IMG/VR virus record: IMGVR_UViG_3300028388_005362
Span: 29,880 to 93,879 of that record
DNA from: a virus
Length of the DNA: 64,000 nucleotides
Strand: one strand, 5' to 3'
Shown: in pieces, positions 43,847 to 63,161 of the stretch
How the letters are laid out: each line of letters opens with the position of its first letter
Position numbering within the stretch: the stretch's first letter is position 1
Notes under the pieces: model-generated
Databases searched by the model: none
The model's input: only the letters and a program-made list of their open reading frames with translations
What the model was told of the DNA's origin: nothing
Program-made: the position numbers and the translations under genes

Positions 43847-46800
43847 CTATAAGACCACTACTCGAACAAGTTTTCCGTCTAACCAGAGGTCTTCCCAGCC
43901 GGTGAAACGTACTCCGTTGTGAGGGTAGAAGCGTGCCTCTGTCCCATGAATTCTCCAAGTACCTTTTGGGGTATTAACCTCTTTGTACTCAGCGGTGAAT
44001 GGAACATTGGTAACTGTGAAATACTCCAGTTTGTGGAAACGTCTGAGGTATTTGACAATACGTACATCCCCTTGAGGGAATTCGTTGTCGTTTGCCAAAG
44101 AAGAAGTCTCATCCAAACCAGTCACTTCACGAGCTGCGCTACGAATTCTGTACTCAGTCTCTACGTTTACATAATACTGATGTACACTATAGAAACCATG
44201 GGTGAGTGTCAGGTCATCGTACTTAGCCAGAGGATCGAACACATACATAGGCTCGATGGTCACCCAACCTTTGTCATAGGTCAGACGATAGTTATCCTTC
44301 TCAACGGTATATTGGTTTCCTGAAACAGAAGTATCAAGGTCACCAACCGCCTTATGGAATGTTCCGTACATATAATCGGCAAGACCGAACCATGCGATTG
44401 CAGGCATACGGGCCATCCCTTGGGCAAGCGTCCAATAGTTGATAGGATTATGCCATTGTGGGACACTATTGTTCGGCTCAGCATCGTAGTCAACCATCAC
44501 CTCCAAAGCAGTCAATCCTGCGTGTGAAGGATAAACGTTACCAAGACCGTCCATTGGAGCCAGATAAACTGTGGACAGAATGTAGTCTTTCTCGTCTCCT
44601 GAACCTCCGGTGATGTAGTAAGCGTATCCTTGAATGTCATGTAACCAGAACCCATTTCCCAGATCGATGCTATCCAAAACTGTTTGGGTAGATGGATTAT
44701 ATAGCCTAAGCCTTGGAAGAGCCTCAAGAGTGCTATAATTAGCAGCAATGTCTCCAGCATCGAAAGTATATACACCGTTGTGCTCATTTGCCTGGGTCAG
44801 AAGAATAGTAGTATTCTCTGACTCGGGGTTAGAGTTACCTGCATACGATATTCCGTTATAGCACTCTATTCTGTAAGTCACATTGTAACGGATTCCGAAG
44901 TCATCTTCCAGTTGAGCATAGACTGCGATTGGCCCCCCACTCATGAGCGTATCTCCACTCTGTGGAATGGCTTGCCACACAATCTTGTTGGTTCCTGACC
45001 TCACTTTCTTTTCAACCTTGAGGTCGTACAGACCAGCAGGACTATTTACTTCTCGGGTATAAACACTCACCTTAGACTTATTGGTCAAATCCCAAATGGA
45101 CCAATTTGCCATGGTCATCGTCGTATAGTCCGCCCACTCAATGAATGGAATATCAGCGATATTCATCTCTCCAGAAAAGTGCATATCTCCCTCAAATATA
45201 GGAGCAGCGGTCAGGTCATAGTTGTACTCGATCTCAGGATAAACTTCTTGGCAACTCAATGGACGTTCATCAAAATACATCATCAATGAACCAGTATTGG
45301 AGTAATTGCCTTCAGTATCGAACACGCGTATAGCCAAAGAAACTGTTTCTCCGACAAGATCGTTATCCTTTGCGATTCGAATCCACTGGTTAATCTCAGA
45401 ATCATGTTTACTCCAAATAACTGCTGTGTCACCTGGTTGCCATACCCATTGGCGCTTTTCCTGGTCTCCGGGTGTAGTAATATCAACATCAATACCAGCA
45501 ATTGGATTATCTCCTGGAGTTATATAAGGGCTCAGGTCAATCCACCACTCATTTCCAGCGGAGCTTGCACAGATGGTCTCGTAGATATTCTGCGTTATTT
45601 CCGGATCACCCTCATTGTTATCATCAATTGGAGTTGGACAATCACAAGTAGGCTCAGTGCCGTCAAAATACAGGGTATATTGAACATGGTTAGAGAAATC
45701 ATACTCGGTATCATATACCCTCAGCCAGATGGTAATCGAAGAACCTTCCAGGCTAACTCCCTGGTCCTTGATGAATTTGAGCTCTGTCTCTCCCTCTACA
45801 TTATTGTAACTGAAGAATGTTCCTTTACCAAATACATGTAGGCTATTTTCGATAGCTTCTGTACCAGTATCCAGGTCAATTCCAGCAATAGTCTGTCCAT
45901 TGGTAGTGATGTGAGAATCAAGGTCTGTCAAATACGCACAGGTATACCAGTCAATATTATAACATACCGTGTCTGTAATTGGCGTTTGAACACTCGGAGA
46001 ATCTGCAGGATTGATAGTGTCCACCAGACATTCACAAGTGGTTTGTGAAGGTTCAAAATACAACGTGATTGTAGAAGTAGTACTGGTATCCCCATCTGTA
46101 TCAAACACTTGAACATCGAAAGTTATTGAATCTCCGTCCAACAGCCCATGTTCTTGTGGGTAGATACGAATAAGTAAGGGGTTGTCTGCCCCGTGTTCTG
46201 TCCATAGGAGAGCCTCCGGTGTTTCAGTGGCTTCTTGGAAACCCGCCTGAGAAACATTCATATCTATACCCTCAACAATCTGGTCGTTATTATCCACGTA
46301 TGGGCTCATATCGAATAAGTATCCCAGACAATCCTGAGCCACCGTCCCACACAAAGTATCATTGATAGGTGAGGTAACAAGTGGAGGACAGCTGATACAA
46401 ATAGTGTCCATTGTACAGGCGCAAGTGGAGTCAGTACCATCGAAGAAAACAGTCAGAGTCTTGTAATCACTGGTGTCTCCCTCAGTATCAAAGGCTACCA
46501 TACCCAATATCAGTTCTTGTCCCTCTACACTTGCATTTTCTTTCTCGTAGAAATCGATGACAAATGGAGAAGCAGAATCGTGGTCTGTGTAATATGTACC
46601 ATAGAACCAGTTGGTGTAGGTGTCTTGGAAACCAGCTATGTCCGTATCAATGTCCAAACCAACGACTGTTTGACCGTTAGCGTCAATATAATCGCTAATA
46701 TCAAACCTCCAGCCAGGACAATCAGCTGCTTTGTTGTAACAAGCAGTCACATATACATCAGACAGTATTGGTGGGTCCAGTGGGTCAGGAGTTGAATCTC

Positions 46801-48844
46801 CGTAAGTACAAGAACAGTTGGTCAATGTATCGTTGAAGTATACCTGCAACGTAACAAAATCACTGCCGTTGCCTTCTTCATCCACCACACGGGCTTGTAT
46901 TTCCAAAGTATCTCCAGCGATGCTGTCAAAATATCCAGGGTTTGGAGTTACCCAGAACTTGGTTAAAGTATCTTGCTCGTAGTCTGTCTCAAAGGTTACA
47001 TACTCCAGAACATTTATACTGTCCATGTCCACTCCCAGGTCAAGGTCTATTCCTTGCAAGGTCTGACCATTGAGGTTAACATACGATGCAAGATCAAAAC
47101 TCCATCCAGCACAAGTCGATGTATCGATGTCATAACAGGCTTCAAACAATACAGGGTCTTGAGTAATTTCCGGAGCTGCTTGTTTGACTATATCACCCAG
47201 GCAAATACACTCGCTGTCCCCATTGGGGTCAAAGTATACTGAGGCAGTATAATAGTTTCCTACATCACCGTCCATATCGTAAGGATACATAGCAAGATAG
47301 AGTGTGTCCCCTGAAGGATTATACCCAGAGTCCGCTTCGAAAATCACTTCCTTGTTGTACACACTTCCCGGACGAGCATGCCAGGTTCCTTGTGCATAAG
47401 CATAGAAGGTGTTCTGGTTTCCGGAATCGGCAGTATTTAGATCTAACCCATCGAGCTCTTGACCATTCTCATCGATAAAATCTGACAGGTCAACCACCCA
47501 AGTATCACACCCTGAAGGTTGGTTGGCAGAAACAACCGCAAGAGAAGTTCCAGACATTTGTGGAGCATTCGACACCACTCTGCTGCCAAAGTCAGATACT
47601 TCAACAGTAATCGTAGCAGAATCAGTCCAATTACCATACTGGTCCTTATAGCGATACTGGAATGTGTGTTGAGTACCTACTGAAGGCATTGTTTGTCCAT
47701 CACGTAAGAACACCCAGAAACTTCCATTACCATAGAAATAGGAGCCTCCAGAAGAAGTCTTGTAGTAATGACTTTTTACTTTGTAAGGCCCAAAATCAAA
47801 TGAATCATCTACTGCCGCTGTGGCGGGGTTTAAGTCAAGCTCTATATCATGGTATCCCCCGTTACTTCCCGCATTATCGTCAGCGCCAGCGGTAACCCTC
47901 AGATTCTTGAGGATAAAATTGTGTCCGACATGGTACTGCTGTGACTTGTCGAAGTAAACCAAATCATCAAAGATCTTGACCGGAGAAGAACATAAAGAAT
48001 CTCCAGAAGGACTCTCTACAATATTCACGTTCAAAGCCGTGAAGTGGTCGTTATTGATGTGGTCATAGTTTCCTGCATAGTAAACTTTGTCCCAACCAGT
48101 AAAGTTAGTGTCCTGTGAGTCAAGAAAGAATGTGTAGGAATGACCGTAAGGCTCTCCTTCTCCGACTTGCCCCTCAGAAGGCCAGGTAATTACACCTGAG
48201 GCGTCTGTTGGTATAACCCCAGCAGGCTCAGCATTATAATTGTATTCCTGATAGTTGAAATTAAGCGACCTATACCCAGCTCTATCGCCCCACAATGGGT
48301 TTTCTATGGCGTCTTGAGTATAACGTATATCTACCTCTTTTGGCCCTGCTGGCTGAGCCATAAATTGGGAAGTACGGCTAATATCCGTTGTGCCCCCTGG
48401 TTGATAATACCTATACGTGAACTCATTGATCGTTGTTCTTGGAATACCGTGAGATTTGAAATAAAATTCACAGTATCCAGAACCAATAGAGTCCACCCAT
48501 ATCTGAAGATAGTCTTCAGCGTTATGGTAAATGGTCAAGGTGTCCACCCAAGCTCCTGTGTGAGTTTTGAATTTCACAGAATCTATGGTGCCTGTGATAT
48601 TATCAGATAGAGCCCGATTCCATCCTTGCGGGTTATCGATGTTGCCATCAGTGTCATAAAGGGAACCTACGCTTTCCCAGTAGATACCTGACTGAGAGAA
48701 AGCTCCCAGGGAAAGCAACATAACCATTGCTGTTGCAACAGTTCTGCGAAAATTTAGACTCTCAATAAATGAGGTCAGGGCATACAAGACGCCCGCTCCA
48801 GCCATGCCAAGCATGAGTAGAGGAAACAATACAAGTTTGTTCAT
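43847..48844 (-). CDS. Exported 1665-aa protein with six tandem beta-rich modules
   Basis: N-terminus has two hydrophobic stretches; the second (TVATAMVMLLSLGAFSQ) looks like a signal peptide with cleavage after Ser-Gln. Residues about 424-1206 hold six modules of about 130 aa, each with a Cys, then W-x-(F/V)-D-(L/I)-(S/A)-x-(Y/F)-(I/V), N-G-Q-x-(I/L)-x-G-(I/L)-D-(L/I/V)-(D/N), (V/A)-x-D-(T/E)-E-G-x-x-S and a final Y-F-(D/E)... C-x-C. The Cys pairs fit extracellular disulphides. The C-terminal 450 residues are beta-rich without repeats. Host-dependent secretion of so large a phage protein is unusual; surface adhesion, receptor blocking or a tail part are options. It has its own promoter with paired operator-like sites. 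Confidence 0.85.
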   Translation of the reverse strand: MNKLVLFPLLMLGMAGAGVLYALTSFIESLNFRRTVATAMVMLLSLGAFSQSGIYWESVGSLYDTDGNIDNPQGWNRALSDNITGTIDSVKFKTHTGAWVDTLTIYHNAEDYLQIWVDSIGSGYCEFYFKSHGIPRTTINEFTYRYYQPGGTTDISRTSQFMAQPAGPKEVDIRYTQDAIENPLWGDRAGYRSLNFNYQEYNYNAEPAGVIPTDASGVITWPSEGQVGEGEPYGHSYTFFLDSQDTNFTGWDKVYYAGNYDHINNDHFTALNVNIVESPSGDSLCSSPVKIFDDLVYFDKSQQYHVGHNFILKNLRVTAGADDNAGSNGGYHDIELDLNPATAAVDDSFDFGPYKVKSHYYKTSSGGSYFYGNGSFWVFLRDGQTMPSVGTQHTFQYRYKDQYGNWTDSATITVEVSDFGSRVVSNAPQMSGTSLAVVSANQPSGCDTWVVDLSDFIDENGQELDGLDLNTADSGNQNTFYAYAQGTWHARPGSVYNKEVIFEADSGYNPSGDTLYLAMYPYDMDGDVGNYYTASVYFDPNGDSECICLGDIVKQAAPEITQDPVLFEACYDIDTSTCAGWSFDLASYVNLNGQTLQGIDLDLGVDMDSINVLEYVTFETDYEQDTLTKFWVTPNPGYFDSIAGDTLEIQARVVDEEGNGSDFVTLQVYFNDTLTNCSCTYGDSTPDPLDPPILSDVYVTACYNKAADCPGWRFDISDYIDANGQTVVGLDIDTDIAGFQDTYTNWFYGTYYTDHDSASPFVIDFYEKENASVEGQELILGMVAFDTEGDTSDYKTLTVFFDGTDSTCACTMDTICISCPPLVTSPINDTLCGTVAQDCLGYLFDMSPYVDNNDQIVEGIDMNVSQAGFQEATETPEALLWTEHGADNPLLIRIYPQEHGLLDGDSITFDVQVFDTDGDTSTTSTITLYFEPSQTTCECLVDTINPADSPSVQTPITDTVCYNIDWYTCAYLTDLDSHITTNGQTIAGIDLDTGTEAIENSLHVFGKGTFFSYNNVEGETELKFIKDQGVSLEGSSITIWLRVYDTEYDFSNHVQYTLYFDGTEPTCDCPTPIDDNNEGDPEITQNIYETICASSAGNEWWIDLSPYITPGDNPIAGIDVDITTPGDQEKRQWVWQPGDTAVIWSKHDSEINQWIRIAKDNDLVGETVSLAIRVFDTEGNYSNTGSLMMYFDERPLSCQEVYPEIEYNYDLTAAPIFEGDMHFSGEMNIADIPFIEWADYTTMTMANWSIWDLTNKSKVSVYTREVNSPAGLYDLKVEKKVRSGTNKIVWQAIPQSGDTLMSGGPIAVYAQLEDDFGIRYNVTYRIECYNGISYAGNSNPESENTTILLTQANEHNGVYTFDAGDIAANYSTLEALPRLRLYNPSTQTVLDSIDLGNGFWLHDIQGYAYYITGGSGDEKDYILSTVYLAPMDGLGNVYPSHAGLTALEVMVDYDAEPNNSVPQWHNPINYWTLAQGMARMPAIAWFGLADYMYGTFHKAVGDLDTSVSGNQYTVEKDNYRLTYDKGWVTIEPMYVFDPLAKYDDLTLTHGFYSVHQYYVNVETEYRIRSAAREVTGLDETSSLANDNEFPQGDVRIVKYLRRFHKLEYFTVTNVPFTAEYKEVNTPKGTWRIHGTEARFYPHNGVRFTGWEDLWLDGKLVRVVVL

Positions 48845-54698: not shown

Positions 54699-55568
54699 TT
54701 AGGCTTCAGCTGGGCGCTTTTCACACATAGCCTCTTGCCATACTTGTTCAGCTAAATATCGACCGGCAGTAACATCGGTGAGAATATGTCCCACCCATCT
54801 CTCAGGTCGTTCGTCCTGAAGGTCATCGTATGAAATGCTTTTGGCACTCATATTAGCCTCAATGACGTCCAGGTATTTATACTTGGTGAACAGGTCTTTG
54901 AAGAGTTTGAGGTTCTTATCGAACTCCAAACGTTTCCTCGCTGCAGCTTCAGCTTCTTTCTTGACCTTGGCAGGTTCCTCGATGAGGTTAGGGAAGAGCT
55001 CCAAAAACTTCTGGTATCTTTCATTGAGGTCCCCCCAGAACGGCTCACCTTCTGGGGTATTCTCCCAGAGGAAAGCAGAATCAAGCAAATGCTTATGCTT
55101 ATAGTCTTTATAACGCTCTACAAACTTCTCCAGGGACTCATGAGCTGCAGTGATAGCGGCTTTAAAAGGGTCAATCGCCCCTGCAACCTGCATGAACAGC
55201 ACGATGGGATAGAGTATTGATGGGCCGTGAAACCCGTATTGTGCGTGAACCTCAACTTCACCTGGAAGATCTTCTTTTACAGGTTCGGCCTTGTTTTCGC
55301 TTAGGACTTTGTCAACAAGGGCATGCCATTTGTCATGAATTTGGGTCCAGTACTCAAGGCCCTCATCGGTGTCCGACCAATCGAAAGCATGAATTATTAC
55401 TTTCTCAGGTTTATGGGCAAGAACACCATCCAAATTCTTGTAAACTACCCATACATTGTCTTTTGTTGAAGCTCTGCCTAAATAAGCCATACGCTCATAA
55501 AAAGTGGTTACACCATTCTCCTTCAAGAATGTGTGGAATTGTCCTACTGTGATTTTCTTCTTTTCCAT
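54699..55568 (-). CDS. Unknown protein, 289 aa
   Basis: Helical, acidic protein. VIIHAFDWSDTDEGLEYWTQIHDKW near residue 60 and a long helix AAITAAHESLEKFVERYKDYK near 140. The frame starts ATG 55568, which lies inside an operator-like site. No function recognised. It has its own paired-site promoter (55565-55632). Confidence 0.7.
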   Translation of the reverse strand: MEKKKITVGQFHTFLKENGVTTFYERMAYLGRASTKDNVWVVYKNLDGVLAHKPEKVIIHAFDWSDTDEGLEYWTQIHDKWHALVDKVLSENKAEPVKEDLPGEVEVHAQYGFHGPSILYPIVLFMQVAGAIDPFKAAITAAHESLEKFVERYKDYKHKHLLDSAFLWENTPEGEPFWGDLNERYQKFLELFPNLIEEPAKVKKEAEAAARKRLEFDKNLKLFKDLFTKYKYLDVIEANMSAKSISYDDLQDERPERWVGHILTDVTAGRYLAEQVWQEAMCEKRPAEA

Positions 55569-55972: not shown

Positions 55973-56054
55973 AGGATTTGTTTTTTTTAAAGTTCTTAAA
56001 TAAAAAATTAGGTTTTCTGTTGCCAGGATAACCTTAAACCCCGGTGATTGCCGT

Positions 56055-56369
56055 CTACATGTAGACAGCAAAACTCTTGCATCCGATGATGCGTCCCTGG
56101 GAATCTCTGACGAGATCGTGAGGAGCAACAACATCAGGACGAAGAGCCGCCTGTGCTACCATAGATGATACGATGAAGATCGTACCTTCTGTGGGAGCCG
56201 GGAGATTCTCAATCTCACCGAAAGAAACGGCGCAGATTGGAATATCACCGCCGGCAATCTGTTCGCTGTCCATAGACACGCGAGCAATATCGCCGGAAGG
56301 CTCAATCACCTCGGTCTCCCCGTTTACCATCAGGTTGATGGCATGAGGAGTCAAGTTGATCTTTCTCAT
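56055..56369 (-). CDS. Conserved phage protein, 104 aa
   Basis: I start at the second Met (MRKINLTPHAINLMVNGE). The pattern L-T-P-H-A-I, then P-S-G-x-x-A-R-V, F-G-E-I-E-N-L-P, F-I-V-S-S-M-V-A-Q-A and RD-S-Q-G-R-I-I-G-C is a small family widespread in phages and bacteria without known function. The stop region lies in a 14-bp palindrome (GTCTACATGTAGAC). Confidence 0.7.
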   Translation of the reverse strand: MRKINLTPHAINLMVNGETEVIEPSGDIARVSMDSEQIAGGDIPICAVSFGEIENLPAPTEGTIFIVSSMVAQAALRPDVVAPHDLVRDSQGRIIGCKSFAVYM

Positions 56370-56401
56370 TGTCAAGTGGTATTAATTGGTTTCAAATGAA
56401 A

Positions 56402-56429: not shown

Positions 56430-57257
56430 CGATAGCTGTGTTTCAGGCAATTGACTTTCTGTCCAGCTACCCGCCCCTCAAGAGCCAACCCTTCCAGGCA
56501 AACCAAGTAGCTGCTTGGTCTGTTATCCTTTGAGATTGACGGAAATTTGTAGGACCTATTGTAGAAACTTCACGGCATTCTCCTGAGCCATTGGCCGAGC
56601 CGACCTCTTCCCGGGTCGTTGTTTCTGCAAATTGGTAGTTGCTAACTACCACGGCGTATTTAATTCGTTATGTGCACTGTAAAAATAGTTTTGAGAACAA
56701 CAATACCCAGCCCGTAGGCTATGACCAGTCTCATTGGTGCGGGTGCCACCTCATCACCTCTGATTATGGTTTGGGTATTGCTGTTCTGTTGTAGAGGACA
56801 TCTCCCCTGCATACACTTTATTGTTTGGGCAAGCTACGCCCAACAGGTCTGCTGTTAATTCAGCTCAAGTATGCAACCTGTCTATCTTGAATTTCTTAAC
56901 GGTCTCGAAAGAAAGTTCCTATGTATAGAATAGGAGTGCTAAAAACACGCCCAGGCAGTATGGAGGACTAACCTGGGACGTGTCAGCAGATAAAATGAAC
57001 GATTGTTTATCCGGTAAAAATTATGAAAAGCCGAATAGGACAACAGTACAATTCCTCTTCCTGACTTACTCAGCAAACACCGGAAGAGGGGAAGGGTGTT
57101 TAGCTGGAAGGCGTCAACAGACGCTCACTCTAATCGTTGTCATAATCCCTAACATCTTGGATGTCAGAAACTACGACGCCATTAACTACATAATAGGTCA
57201 TGGTGTTGTGGGTATATTGGTGAAACATAAGTGTTCAACGCTATGACGAGAGTGCAG
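56430..57257 (-). ncRNA. Large hairpin-rich non-coding region, candidate ornate phage RNA
   Basis: About 0.83 kb without a convincing gene but with many stems: TGGTAGTT/AACTACCA, ACCAAG/CTTGGT, a 16-base pair with one mismatch (56693-56708 with 56773-56788), TTGGGC/GCCCAA, GCTG/CAGC, CCTCTTCC/GGAAGAGG, ACACG-CCCAGG with CCTGGGACGTGT. Some are mutually exclusive (CCTCTTCC/GGAAGAGG versus AAACACC/GGTGTTT), as in switching RNAs. A terminator at its left end and the preceding gene terminator at its right favour leftward transcription. Size and site recall the large phage RNA classes GOLLD and ROOL; no conserved motif of those was identified. Confidence 0.5.
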
Positions 57258-57261
57258 TCGT

Positions 57262-57296
57262 AAAAAACAAATCCCCAACTCCGAAGAGCTGGGGAT
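57262..57296 (-). terminator. Rho-independent terminator after 57304-57630
   Basis: AATCCCCA with TGGGGATA stem (57270-57297) and, in the minus direction, TTGTTTTTTACG. It ends the gene upstream and separates it from the hairpin-rich region. Confidence 0.8.
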
Positions 57297-57303
57297 AAGT
57301 CGG

Positions 57304-57630
57304 CTACGCAGTGGCGATAACCCTGGCTTTCATGGTACCCTTAGATACCAGAACGTCACCAGTGTCTTCATCAACCACGTCACGCACTGCTGTTTGCTCC
57401 GCTACCATGTAGGCAGCAGCATCAGTACGTACACCCTTAGCAACTGGTATGTACACCACTTCATCTCCGATTCTTGCACGCAAGCTGAAGTTGCCTGCAA
57501 AAGATTCGGACTCCGTGATGTAGTTGTCAGCGTCTACCTGTACGGTGACGCTTTTACCAGTAGTTGCATAAACAGGCTGGCTGGAATATTTCTTCAGCGA
57601 GCCTAAGTTCAGTTGTGATAATACACTCAT
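57304..57630 (-). CDS. Small beta-rich protein of unknown function, 108 aa
   Basis: Start at ATG 57630 (MSVLSQLNLGSLKKYSS). Strand-rich: TVQVDADNYITESESFAG, RARIGDEVVYIPVAK, ending VSKGTMKARVIATA. Looks like a small beta-barrel, as in head decoration proteins of phages, but it stands far from the structural operon. No family recognised. Confidence 0.6.
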   Translation of the reverse strand: MSVLSQLNLGSLKKYSSQPVYATTGKSVTVQVDADNYITESESFAGNFSLRARIGDEVVYIPVAKGVRTDAAAYMVAEQTAVRDVVDEDTGDVLVSKGTMKARVIATA

Positions 57631-60479: not shown

Positions 60480-60791
60480 GAGGTATCGTTGGAGGTATCA
60501 CAAAAAACAGCCCGCTAAAAAAGCGGGCTATTTTGTTGATTATCAAGTGATTCGCCTGGGGCTCGAACCCAGGACCCACGCCTTAAAAGGGCGTTGCTCT
60601 ACGCCCTGCTTAATAACTTCCCTACAGATTAAAAACCACCTCTATTTCTTTAATAACGAGCGTTTGCGATGATTTGCGTCTCATTCTGCAAACATAACAA
60701 TATTTGTTATATTGGCAAAAATGGGCTACTTTTACATCGTCTGAGGTATCATTGGAGGTATCTTTTGAAGAGACCCCAAAAAGATACCTCC
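60480..60791. other. attP site: tRNA-Lys 3' fragment with flanking arm-type repeats
   Basis: 60548-60602 is the reverse complement of the 3' part of tRNA-Lys: end of the D stem (GTAGAGC), anticodon arm ACGCC-CTTTTAA-GGCGT with anticodon TTT, T arm CTGGG-TTCGAGC-CCCAG, and acceptor strand GCGAATC with A73. The 5' acceptor strand is absent, so it is not a complete gene, but an attachment core. GAGGTATCGTTGGAGGTATC (60480-60499) and GAGGTATCATTGGAGGTATC (60743-60762) flank it, with an inverted GATACCTCC at 60783-60791: probable arm-type integrase sites. The integrase starts 12 bases on. Confidence 0.75.
60509..60529 (+). terminator. Rho-independent terminator after Tad2-like gene
   Basis: AGCCCGCT (60509-60516) with AGCGGGCT (60522-60529), then ATTTTG; an A-run precedes it, so it may act in both directions. 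It isolates the attP core from transcription from the left. Confidence 0.8.
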
Positions 60792-60802
60792 GAAGCTCTG
60801 TA

Positions 60803-62020
60803 ATGAAGCACAAAATAAAACTCATCCACCCGTCTATCAAGAGGTTACGCACTGCCGAGGGATACCCCATCATGTTGGAGGTATACCTGGGTCGTGGAGA
60901 CCGGATTCGACTCAAATCGGGGTATCATTTTGACAAAGAGGCAGTCTCAGATACTGGATTGGTACGGGGAAGATCTTCCGCTGCAGTGCAGACAAACAAG
61001 CAACTGAAGCGAATGCTGGACAAAGCCCACCAGATTGATGAGATGCTGGGGGCTGAATACACCCGCAAGCAGTTCATGGATGCCTGGAGGGGGATAGACA
61101 AGGAGGATGACCCCAGTGATTTGTTTAAGTACTTTGAAATCGTGATTCCGCAAAAGCCAAAGGGCAGGACAAGGAACTACTTTGTCACCACCTTAAAGCA
61201 CCTGAAGGCATTTCACCCAGATCCCATACCTATATATAAGGTAGACAAGGACTTTGTGGAAGGATACAGGAAATTTTTGGAGGAATGGCTGGCACCCAAT
61301 ACCGTCAGAACGCATCTATCTAAGCTCAGAAACGTGCTCAATCTGGCGGTGGGAGACAAGAATATGGACCTGAAGGGGTATGTACCTCCTTTTATGACCA
61401 ACCGCTTACTCCCTGCTCCCGTGCGCAAGACAAGGGACCGCTCGTTGAATCCCCGGCTGATTCAGCGATTGTTCGAGCTTCCGACAGCCAAAGGCAGACG
61501 CCACTACAAGTCCCAGCGGCTGTATCATTTGTCCTATCTTTGTTATGGGGCTAACCTGATTGACCTGGCATTGCTCAAGCAGTCATCCATCGTTGGGGGA
61601 ACCCTGGAGTTTGACCGCAGCAAAACGGGTCGTCAGATTCCACCGGTGGTGATAACCTCCGAGATGGAGCAGATCTTTGAGGATCTGAAGCCCTACTGCA
61701 AGGAAGATTACCTGGTCCACATCCTCAAGGATGAGTTCAACTGGCACAACGTCAGAACACGGGTTGACCGCTGGGACAGACACATCAACGACTGGTTGAG
61801 CTCAGCCTGTGATGTACTGGGAATACAGCCCAAGGTGACCTTCTATTCGGCCCGGCATAGTTTTGCCCAACATTTGCGCTACGCGGATAAGAGCGATTCG
61901 TTCATTGCCAGGTTCTTGGCGCACTCCTCAGAGAGTACGGTCAAGGGATACCTGGTCAACCATGATGTAAAACAATTAATTGAAGTTCAGGATAGCCTGC
62001 TTCAGCAACGTAAACCATAA
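60803..62020 (+). CDS. int: Tyrosine recombinase, phage integrase
   Basis: 405 aa from ATG 60803; the frame continues upstream, but that part covers the arm-type repeats. Core-binding domain at about 100-210, catalytic domain after 225. Catalytic set: Lys274 (SKTGRQ), Arg351 and His352 (YSARHS), His374 (FLAHSS), nucleophile Tyr383 (KGYL). The first catalytic arginine, expected in the C-x-G motif, is Tyr248 (CYGAN). In the CTnDOT integrase the same residue is Ser, so activity may persist. The adjacent attP fits tRNA-Lys integration. Followed 11 bases later by a related gene. Confidence 0.88.
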   Translation: MKHKIKLIHPSIKRLRTAEGYPIMLEVYLGRGDRIRLKSGYHFDKEAVSDTGLVRGRSSAAVQTNKQLKRMLDKAHQIDEMLGAEYTRKQFMDAWRGIDKEDDPSDLFKYFEIVIPQKPKGRTRNYFVTTLKHLKAFHPDPIPIYKVDKDFVEGYRKFLEEWLAPNTVRTHLSKLRNVLNLAVGDKNMDLKGYVPPFMTNRLLPAPVRKTRDRSLNPRLIQRLFELPTAKGRRHYKSQRLYHLSYLCYGANLIDLALLKQSSIVGGTLEFDRSKTGRQIPPVVITSEMEQIFEDLKPYCKEDYLVHILKDEFNWHNVRTRVDRWDRHINDWLSSACDVLGIQPKVTFYSARHSFAQHLRYADKSDSFIARFLAHSSESTVKGYLVNHDVKQLIEVQDSLLQQRKP

Positions 62021-62031
62021 ACAATAAGACC

Positions 62032-63129
62032 ATGGGAGTTTTTAGAGTAGAAAGAGACACTAAGGGGCTGGTGAAGGTTGTGTGGGAGAACCACAGCAAC
62101 CACACCGATCGTTTTGCCTTGTCTACTGGTGTGAAGGTCTCCCAGGAGAACTTCCACTCAGGTCGGGTCTTGGATACAGACCCCCACCACAAGTTCAAAA
62201 ACGAGGTTATCAAGGAGTACTTCTCCGAGATCATCTCTCTGGTGATTCGCTGTAACAAGCAGAACAACCAGACTAACGCCAAACTGTTGGAAGGAATGTG
62301 GAGTGCACGTCAGGACGGAGTCAATTTTGACTATGTCATCCAGTACAAAACGTGGGCCGAAAGCAAATACCTGGATAAGGGGTATAGCGAGCAGACCCTC
62401 AAGAATGTAATGGGACACGCCAATCTGATCTCCGAGTTCGAAGCTCATCGCCGCATGTCCCTGGATGTGTCTGTGTTTGACAAAGCGACCATGGATGAGT
62501 TGGTGGTTTACATGCAGCTGCACAAACAGTATACTGACCAGCACGTGCTGCGCCAGGTCCGAATGGTCAAGACCTTCTTGAGCGAGCGGTATCCTGTGGC
62601 AGACTGGGGCTGGATAAAATATCGTCCGATGTCAACCCGGATTCACTGGCTCAACGACAGTGACATCCAGCTGCTGCAGCGAACACAGCTTGAGCCTCGC
62701 CTTAACCAGGTACGGGAAATGCTGTTGGTGATGATAGGAGGAGGACTAAGTCTGCAGGACATGTTCAGGCGTCAGAAGTTTGTCCGGGGATTCCGTTCCC
62801 GGTACTACGAGCTGGCAATTGAGTTGTACAAGGATCACACTCGTGTGGACCCGGACGAAGAACGCTTTGAGGGCCAGTTGCGTGAGGTTCTCTACAAGTG
62901 TGAGATAGAACGTCAAGTGGAAACAGACAGCGGACAGTACGTACCTTTATATATGGCGGTATCTGGTTCCCTGGGATTTGACACCTATGTGATGGAAGCA
63001 CTCATTCGTGGGTACAGCCCTTACAAGTTGTTCTACAGTTTACCTATGGCCCACTGGCAATTGTTCTATCCTTATATACGAGAGCGGAATCGCTACAACA
63101 AAGAGCTCAAAAAGTTCAAAGGGTTCTAA
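62032..63129 (+). CDS. Degenerate tyrosine-recombinase-like protein, probable partner of the integrase
   Basis: 365 aa. The N-terminal 200 residues have the arm- and core-binding fold of recombinases (TLKNVMGHANLISEFEAHRRM, RQVRMVKTFLSERYP). The catalytic half starts like box I (MLLVMIGGGLSLQDM) but has no Arg there, no SKT lysine, no R-H pair and no terminal Tyr. So it is probably inactive as an enzyme. It is co-transcribed with the integrase (11-base gap), and a hetero-oligomer role is inferred. Alternative: decayed duplicate. Confidence 0.75.
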   Translation: MGVFRVERDTKGLVKVVWENHSNHTDRFALSTGVKVSQENFHSGRVLDTDPHHKFKNEVIKEYFSEIISLVIRCNKQNNQTNAKLLEGMWSARQDGVNFDYVIQYKTWAESKYLDKGYSEQTLKNVMGHANLISEFEAHRRMSLDVSVFDKATMDELVVYMQLHKQYTDQHVLRQVRMVKTFLSERYPVADWGWIKYRPMSTRIHWLNDSDIQLLQRTQLEPRLNQVREMLLVMIGGGLSLQDMFRRQKFVRGFRSRYYELAIELYKDHTRVDPDEERFEGQLREVLYKCEIERQVETDSGQYVPLYMAVSGSLGFDTYVMEALIRGYSPYKLFYSLPMAHWQLFYPYIRERNRYNKELKKFKGF

Positions 63130-63134
63130 ACAAC

Positions 63135-63161
63135 AAACCCCCGGCATACCACCGGGGGTTT
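63135..63161 (+). terminator. Rho-independent terminator after recombinase pair
   Basis: AAACCCCCGG (63135-63144) with CCGGGGGTTT (63152-63161), then TTATTT. Strong stem, 7-base loop. Confidence 0.88.

Follow-up and report, generated by a model that had tools for sequence, protein, structure and literature searches.

A candidate structured noncoding RNA of 0.84 kb between two terminators in a phage with a crAss-like gene set

What fills a hairpin-rich gap between two leftward genes in the early region of a phage? The gap lies in a 64-kb stretch of DNA, called here the window, which forms the end of a virus record of 93,879 bases. The genes of the record include a family A polymerase, a primase, a DnaB-like helicase and rIIA/rIIB-like proteins, a uracil-DNA glycosylase is also encoded, and by its gene set the record is assigned to the crAss-like phages. 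The terminase has 41% identity to that of Flavobacterium phages Fpv and 34-36% to those of gut crAss-like phages, and among cultured relatives the nearest one found was a prophage in Zeaxanthinibacter sp. PT1, with a capsid identity of 78%. Given its tyrosine recombinase gene, the phage may be temperate. A 1665-aa protein of the early region (43847-48844, minus strand) has no Pfam or PHROG match. The features around the gap are the following, with positions counted in the window.

60704-63129, near the right end: tyrosine recombinase gene (438 aa), then a 365-aa gene without a family match
57304-57630, minus strand: preceding gene, 108 aa from ATG, without known relatives
57296-57271, minus strand: T1, upstream intrinsic terminator, 11-bp stem and U tail, just past the stop of gene 57304-57630
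56431-57270, minus strand: candidate noncoding RNA of 0.84 kb (no coding signal, folding, no protein families)
56430-56401, minus strand: T2, downstream intrinsic terminator, 13-bp stem and U tail
56055-56375, minus strand: next gene, 106-aa protein, ATG near 56369, conserved in other phages

The initial annotation had called about 0.83 kb of this interval noncoding, and the coding analysis agrees. In an order-2 codon-phase model, recalibrated on checked genes because its first version missed some real early genes, the open reading frames (ORFs) of at least 40 aa in the stretch score -0.11 to -0.45 bits per codon, and the checked genes of the phage -0.05 to +0.24. Every ORF of the stretch thus falls below every checked gene at order 2, a scale on which some real early genes score low, and with models of order 3 or 4 two zinc-finger-like genes score inside the upper end of the ORF range. 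No convincing Pfam or PHROG family was found for the ORFs, only stray matches with E of 0.01-0.15, and tblastn against phages with two of them gave no match. Two recodings were also tried and rejected: reading TAG as Q opened frames of up to 141 aa, and reading TGA as W opened a 208-aa frame running antisense through the neighbouring gene, none of them gene-like.

The two leftward terminators reported around the stretch are both intrinsic and real. Between 24 and 64 kb, leftward terminator-like sites with at least 10 pairs are T1, T2 and 63161-63135 only; the last (63135-63161) is a strong bidirectional terminator separating the recombinase genes from the next gene. From 24 to 63 kb, T1 and T2 are therefore the only strong leftward terminators, and they exactly bracket the stretch, which runs in the direction of its operon. 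Of the architectural features, this enclosure argues most strongly for a separate transcript. We lean, at slightly less than even confidence, towards a leftward noncoding RNA gene that stands alone within the early operon of this crAss-like phage and measures about 0.84 kb.

The stems that bear on this reading are listed below.

56694-56709/56772-56787, minus strand: longest stem, 16 bp, closing a branched loop (pairing and shuffle comparison)
57139-57156/57160-57177, minus strand: 18-bp hairpin with five G.U pairs and a 3-nt loop (pair probability of at least 0.98)
57054-57089, minus strand: 8-bp stem CCTCTTCC/GGAAGAGG, interlocking with 57075-57081/57095-57101 and hence mutually exclusive with it or pseudoknotted
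56945-56983, minus strand: 11-bp stem with one bulge, ACACGUCCCAGG/CCUGGGCGUGU (predicted fold)
56808-56875, minus strand: helix TGCATAC/GTATGCA in pseudoknot-like overlap with ACAGGT/ACCTGT (stem comparison and direct reading)

The initial annotation had singled out a stem that keeps pairing by G-U in the minus-strand RNA only. This is the 16-bp stem, which had been placed one position off; it has 15 Watson-Crick pairs and one A.C, which becomes G.U in the minus RNA alone, and a stem as good occurred in none of 100 shuffles. The hairpin at 57139-57177, absent from that annotation, is likewise an unbroken helix in the minus RNA only. The stem said to favour the plus strand also exists, at 57171-57182/57200-57211 with three T.G pairs. 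The use of wobble pairs as support for leftward transcription thus survives for the two strongest stems and fails for the whole set, in which stems scoring at least 7 give 11 plus-strand against 10 minus-strand wobbles; with totals so nearly equal, wobble alone leaves the strand unsettled. The high density of stems stands as a count, six scoring at least 8, but 13% of shuffles reach that number. That some stems are mutually exclusive is consistent with the interlocking pair at 57054-57089, which could also be pseudoknotted.

Such interlocking stems would also suit a long untranslated leader, in which attenuation controls the downstream early genes and read-through is set by alternative hairpins or a bound factor. 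The position of T2 fits this alternative, since about 30 nt separate it from the start codon of the 106-aa gene, with no clear promoter seen between them, and in one relative (G008) a structured RNA similarly precedes a terminator-like hairpin and a nearby ATG. However, alternative partners for either terminator arm are no better than chance (about 20% of shuffles match them). The internal copy AGCAGACCTG (56853-56844), for instance, pairs at -16.0 kcal/mol, a value equalled or bettered in 21% of shuffles. As the stretch also matches no riboswitch or leader family of Rfam, we regard the leader as an unlikely explanation, albeit the foremost rival of the stand-alone RNA.

Regarding overall stability, the stretch folds strongly, with z values of -6.0 on the minus and -4.7 on the plus strand (100 shuffles, terminators excluded), or -4.6 and -4.8 with 20 shuffles. 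Depending on bounds and shuffle number, its minimum free energy lies below that of dinucleotide shuffles by 4.6-6 standard deviations (minus strand) or 4.7-6.8 (plus strand). When the 157 segments of the record are ranked by stability for their GC, 56431-57270 comes fourth on the minus strand and second on the plus strand. All four leading minus-strand segments fall within 55.9-58.0 kb, and the top three overlap or flank the stretch. The z value is high but not unique, since other noncoding gaps of the same and related phages reach -2 to -6, and a 465-base gap of one relative (G1175) reaches -7.8. Idle DNA of 0.84 kb is rarely kept by phage genomes. A spacer without function, or the remnant of a gene, lying in an early region that changes fast and with hairpins that are mostly incidental, would be expected to look much like this in some respects: gaps elsewhere fold almost as well, wobble pairs have no overall strand preference, and no relative appeared in any collection searched. 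Against it stand the rarity of idle DNA of this length in phages, the longest stem, which shuffling did not reproduce, the two strong flanking terminators and the lack of any protein remnant in the stretch. We judge the spacer improbable, and slightly more so than the leader.

At the BLASTN level, no DNA relative turned up among 50,697 phages, 72,556 plasmids, 21 + 48 crAss-like contigs (about 70) and some 790 genomes of Bacteroidota. Two covariance models, each built from a single sequence and covering one part of the stretch (R2 and R3), recovered only the window from 1.05 Mb that included large relatives, and R2 found nothing in 22 further records. A scan with the 16-mer GTGATGAGGTGGCACC matched ten contigs, in which similarity hardly extended past the word itself. 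Relatives of the genes at 57304-57630 and 54699-55568 were absent from the viral contigs searched, and those of the 106-aa gene, followed as a route to related stretches, occupy other contexts. In these collections, from which records very close to the window may be missing, the candidate RNA is, by sequence comparison, an orphan.

GOLLD RNAs form a homo-oligomeric nanocage, have a conserved 3' region and are frequently, if not universally, associated with tRNAs. They occur in phages, with many members over 800 nt and often near tRNAs, and ROOL RNAs, also large and of ornate fold, are carried by phages and prophages, frequently close to tRNA islands; neither kind has an established function (PMC12286853). 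The suggestion that the stretch might be such an RNA found no support, as the Rfam search gave no GOLLD or ROOL match at the gathering score, nor in the stretch at E of up to 10. In size and phage location the candidate does resemble GOLLD, and tRNAs occur in the corresponding operon of related phages; in contrast, it has no covariance-model match even under relaxed settings, and neither the window nor the rest of the record contains a tRNA. It shares with ROOL its large size, predicted ornate fold and phage origin, but not a match in Rfam. Functional resemblance to either is an analogy only. The window has no match to any Rfam family at the gathering score, and OLE or another family was likewise rejected for the stretch.

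In the relatives examined, the early operon of this phage group commonly carries structured RNAs. The main examples are given here.

L070:2586-3005: structured RNA of G008, near tRNAs
L073:9965-10530, minus strand: structured RNA of G012
L099:16035-16308 (G023:C1:986035-986308), minus strand: permuted tmRNA of the Zeaxanthinibacter sp. PT1 prophage
L228:1290-1565 (G1185:21290-21565): permuted tmRNA of G1185
L232:8739-8873, minus strand: hatchet ribozyme of G1168 (73.4 bits), early region, two tRNAs nearby

The RNAs of G008 and G012 have in common a core of 180 nt with 80% identity, within an undescribed structured RNA of 0.4-0.57 kb that lies upstream of the polymerase gene on the early strand and ends in a hairpin just before a small gene. 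Among its 46 predicted pairs, four have changed on both sides in a compensatory way, two on one side and none is broken. It has no Rfam match, and no further members were found among 38 + 48 other records. Like our candidate, it belongs to the same phage group, early operon and strand, is several hundred nucleotides long and has an end hairpin before a small gene; the difference is that its covariance model (R1, a core of 185 positions) recovers those two only. Homology of the stretch to it was rejected at this sensitivity, as R1 found no match with filters on or off; its best score in 55.0-58.5 kb of the window was 3.2 bits with filters off, which is not significant. The permuted tmRNAs lie beside tRNAs in the early operon and score 63.1 bits in the prophage and 66.9 bits in G1185, over a cut-off of 47; ARAGORN calls their tags as GKVIQMNNAPVRLAA and GKFSIASEGRVVPMTRQQLKAVA. 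In G1185, ARAGORN also reports a tRNA-Stop with anticodon UUA at L228:1208-1282, which would read UAA and whose anticodon stem looks weak. None of these early-operon RNAs is detectably related to the stretch of the window. Two other candidates were discarded: a high-GC, well-folding gap common to G008 and G009 read like a protein-coding sequence (ATGGCAAAAGCC...), and in G013 the dense hairpins sit between short ORFs and so do not form one long RNA.

Given the terminators, the operon direction, the two strongest stems and a stretch without coding signal, a long leftward structured noncoding transcript is the best-supported reading. Its form as a stand-alone RNA gene is favoured because the only two strong leftward terminators in 24-63 kb enclose it exactly, because it yields no coding signal, protein family or convincing recoded frame, because its minus-strand z reaches -6 and it forms, with its flanks, the most stable minus-strand segments for their GC, because its two strongest stems pair continuously in the minus RNA only, and because the same operon of relatives carries structured RNAs. 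We infer separate transcription, the 5' end and any molecular role. Leftward transcription would start in the divergent region around 57.7-58.5 kb and would pass T1 or restart behind it; the RNA would fold into many hairpins, have its 3' end at T2 and most likely act via its fold, as a scaffold or decoy, like large ornate RNAs of other phages. Several results count against the stand-alone RNA: no relative was found, and hence no covariation; the Bacteroidota-type promoter TAnnTTTG is missing on the minus strand near 57.3 kb; and there are the comparable z values of other noncoding stretches, the even wobble counts and the good folding of the plus strand.

Inverted repeats near a switch of gene direction and the nearby integrase could speak for an element acting at the DNA level, for example an origin of replication or a site of recombination. 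This is very improbable, as self-comparison gave no direct-repeat family, cumulative GC skew has no sharp turn at the stretch, and the strongest stems retain G.U pairs in the RNA sense. Equally remote are several missed, very short early genes separated by hairpins, since, even if the G013 ORFs of 77-154 aa between hairpins escaped the coding score and some real early genes of the same phage score low, the ORFs of the stretch reach at most 88 aa, do not tile it, score lower at order 2 than any checked gene and have no family match.

Returning to the stand-alone RNA, a new class of large structured phage RNAs, with this stretch as its first known example, is possible, though unlikely. If this were true, then, with the RNA of G008 and G012, the crAss-like early operon would be a store of fast-diverging ornate RNAs beside tRNA and tmRNA genes. 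Known large structured phage RNAs are few (PMC12286853), and a separate crAss-like one would add a test system for a role in early infection. The Zeaxanthinibacter sp. PT1 prophage, a cultured relative with structured RNAs in its early operon, would belong to that system.

The candidate stretch itself contains no tRNA or tmRNA, nor a permuted tmRNA (RF04321) with tRNA-like domain and tag frame; in this it differs from the early operons of the two crAss-like relatives that carry one. The only related signal is a weak alpha_tmRNA match 3' of the next gene, at 56006-56090 on the minus strand (23 bits, E 2e-4, cut-off 50). The matching segment follows the 106-aa gene, is pseudoknot-like, resembles the 3' end of the alphaproteobacterial tmRNA model and is nearly identical to it over CCUGGCAACAGAAA.
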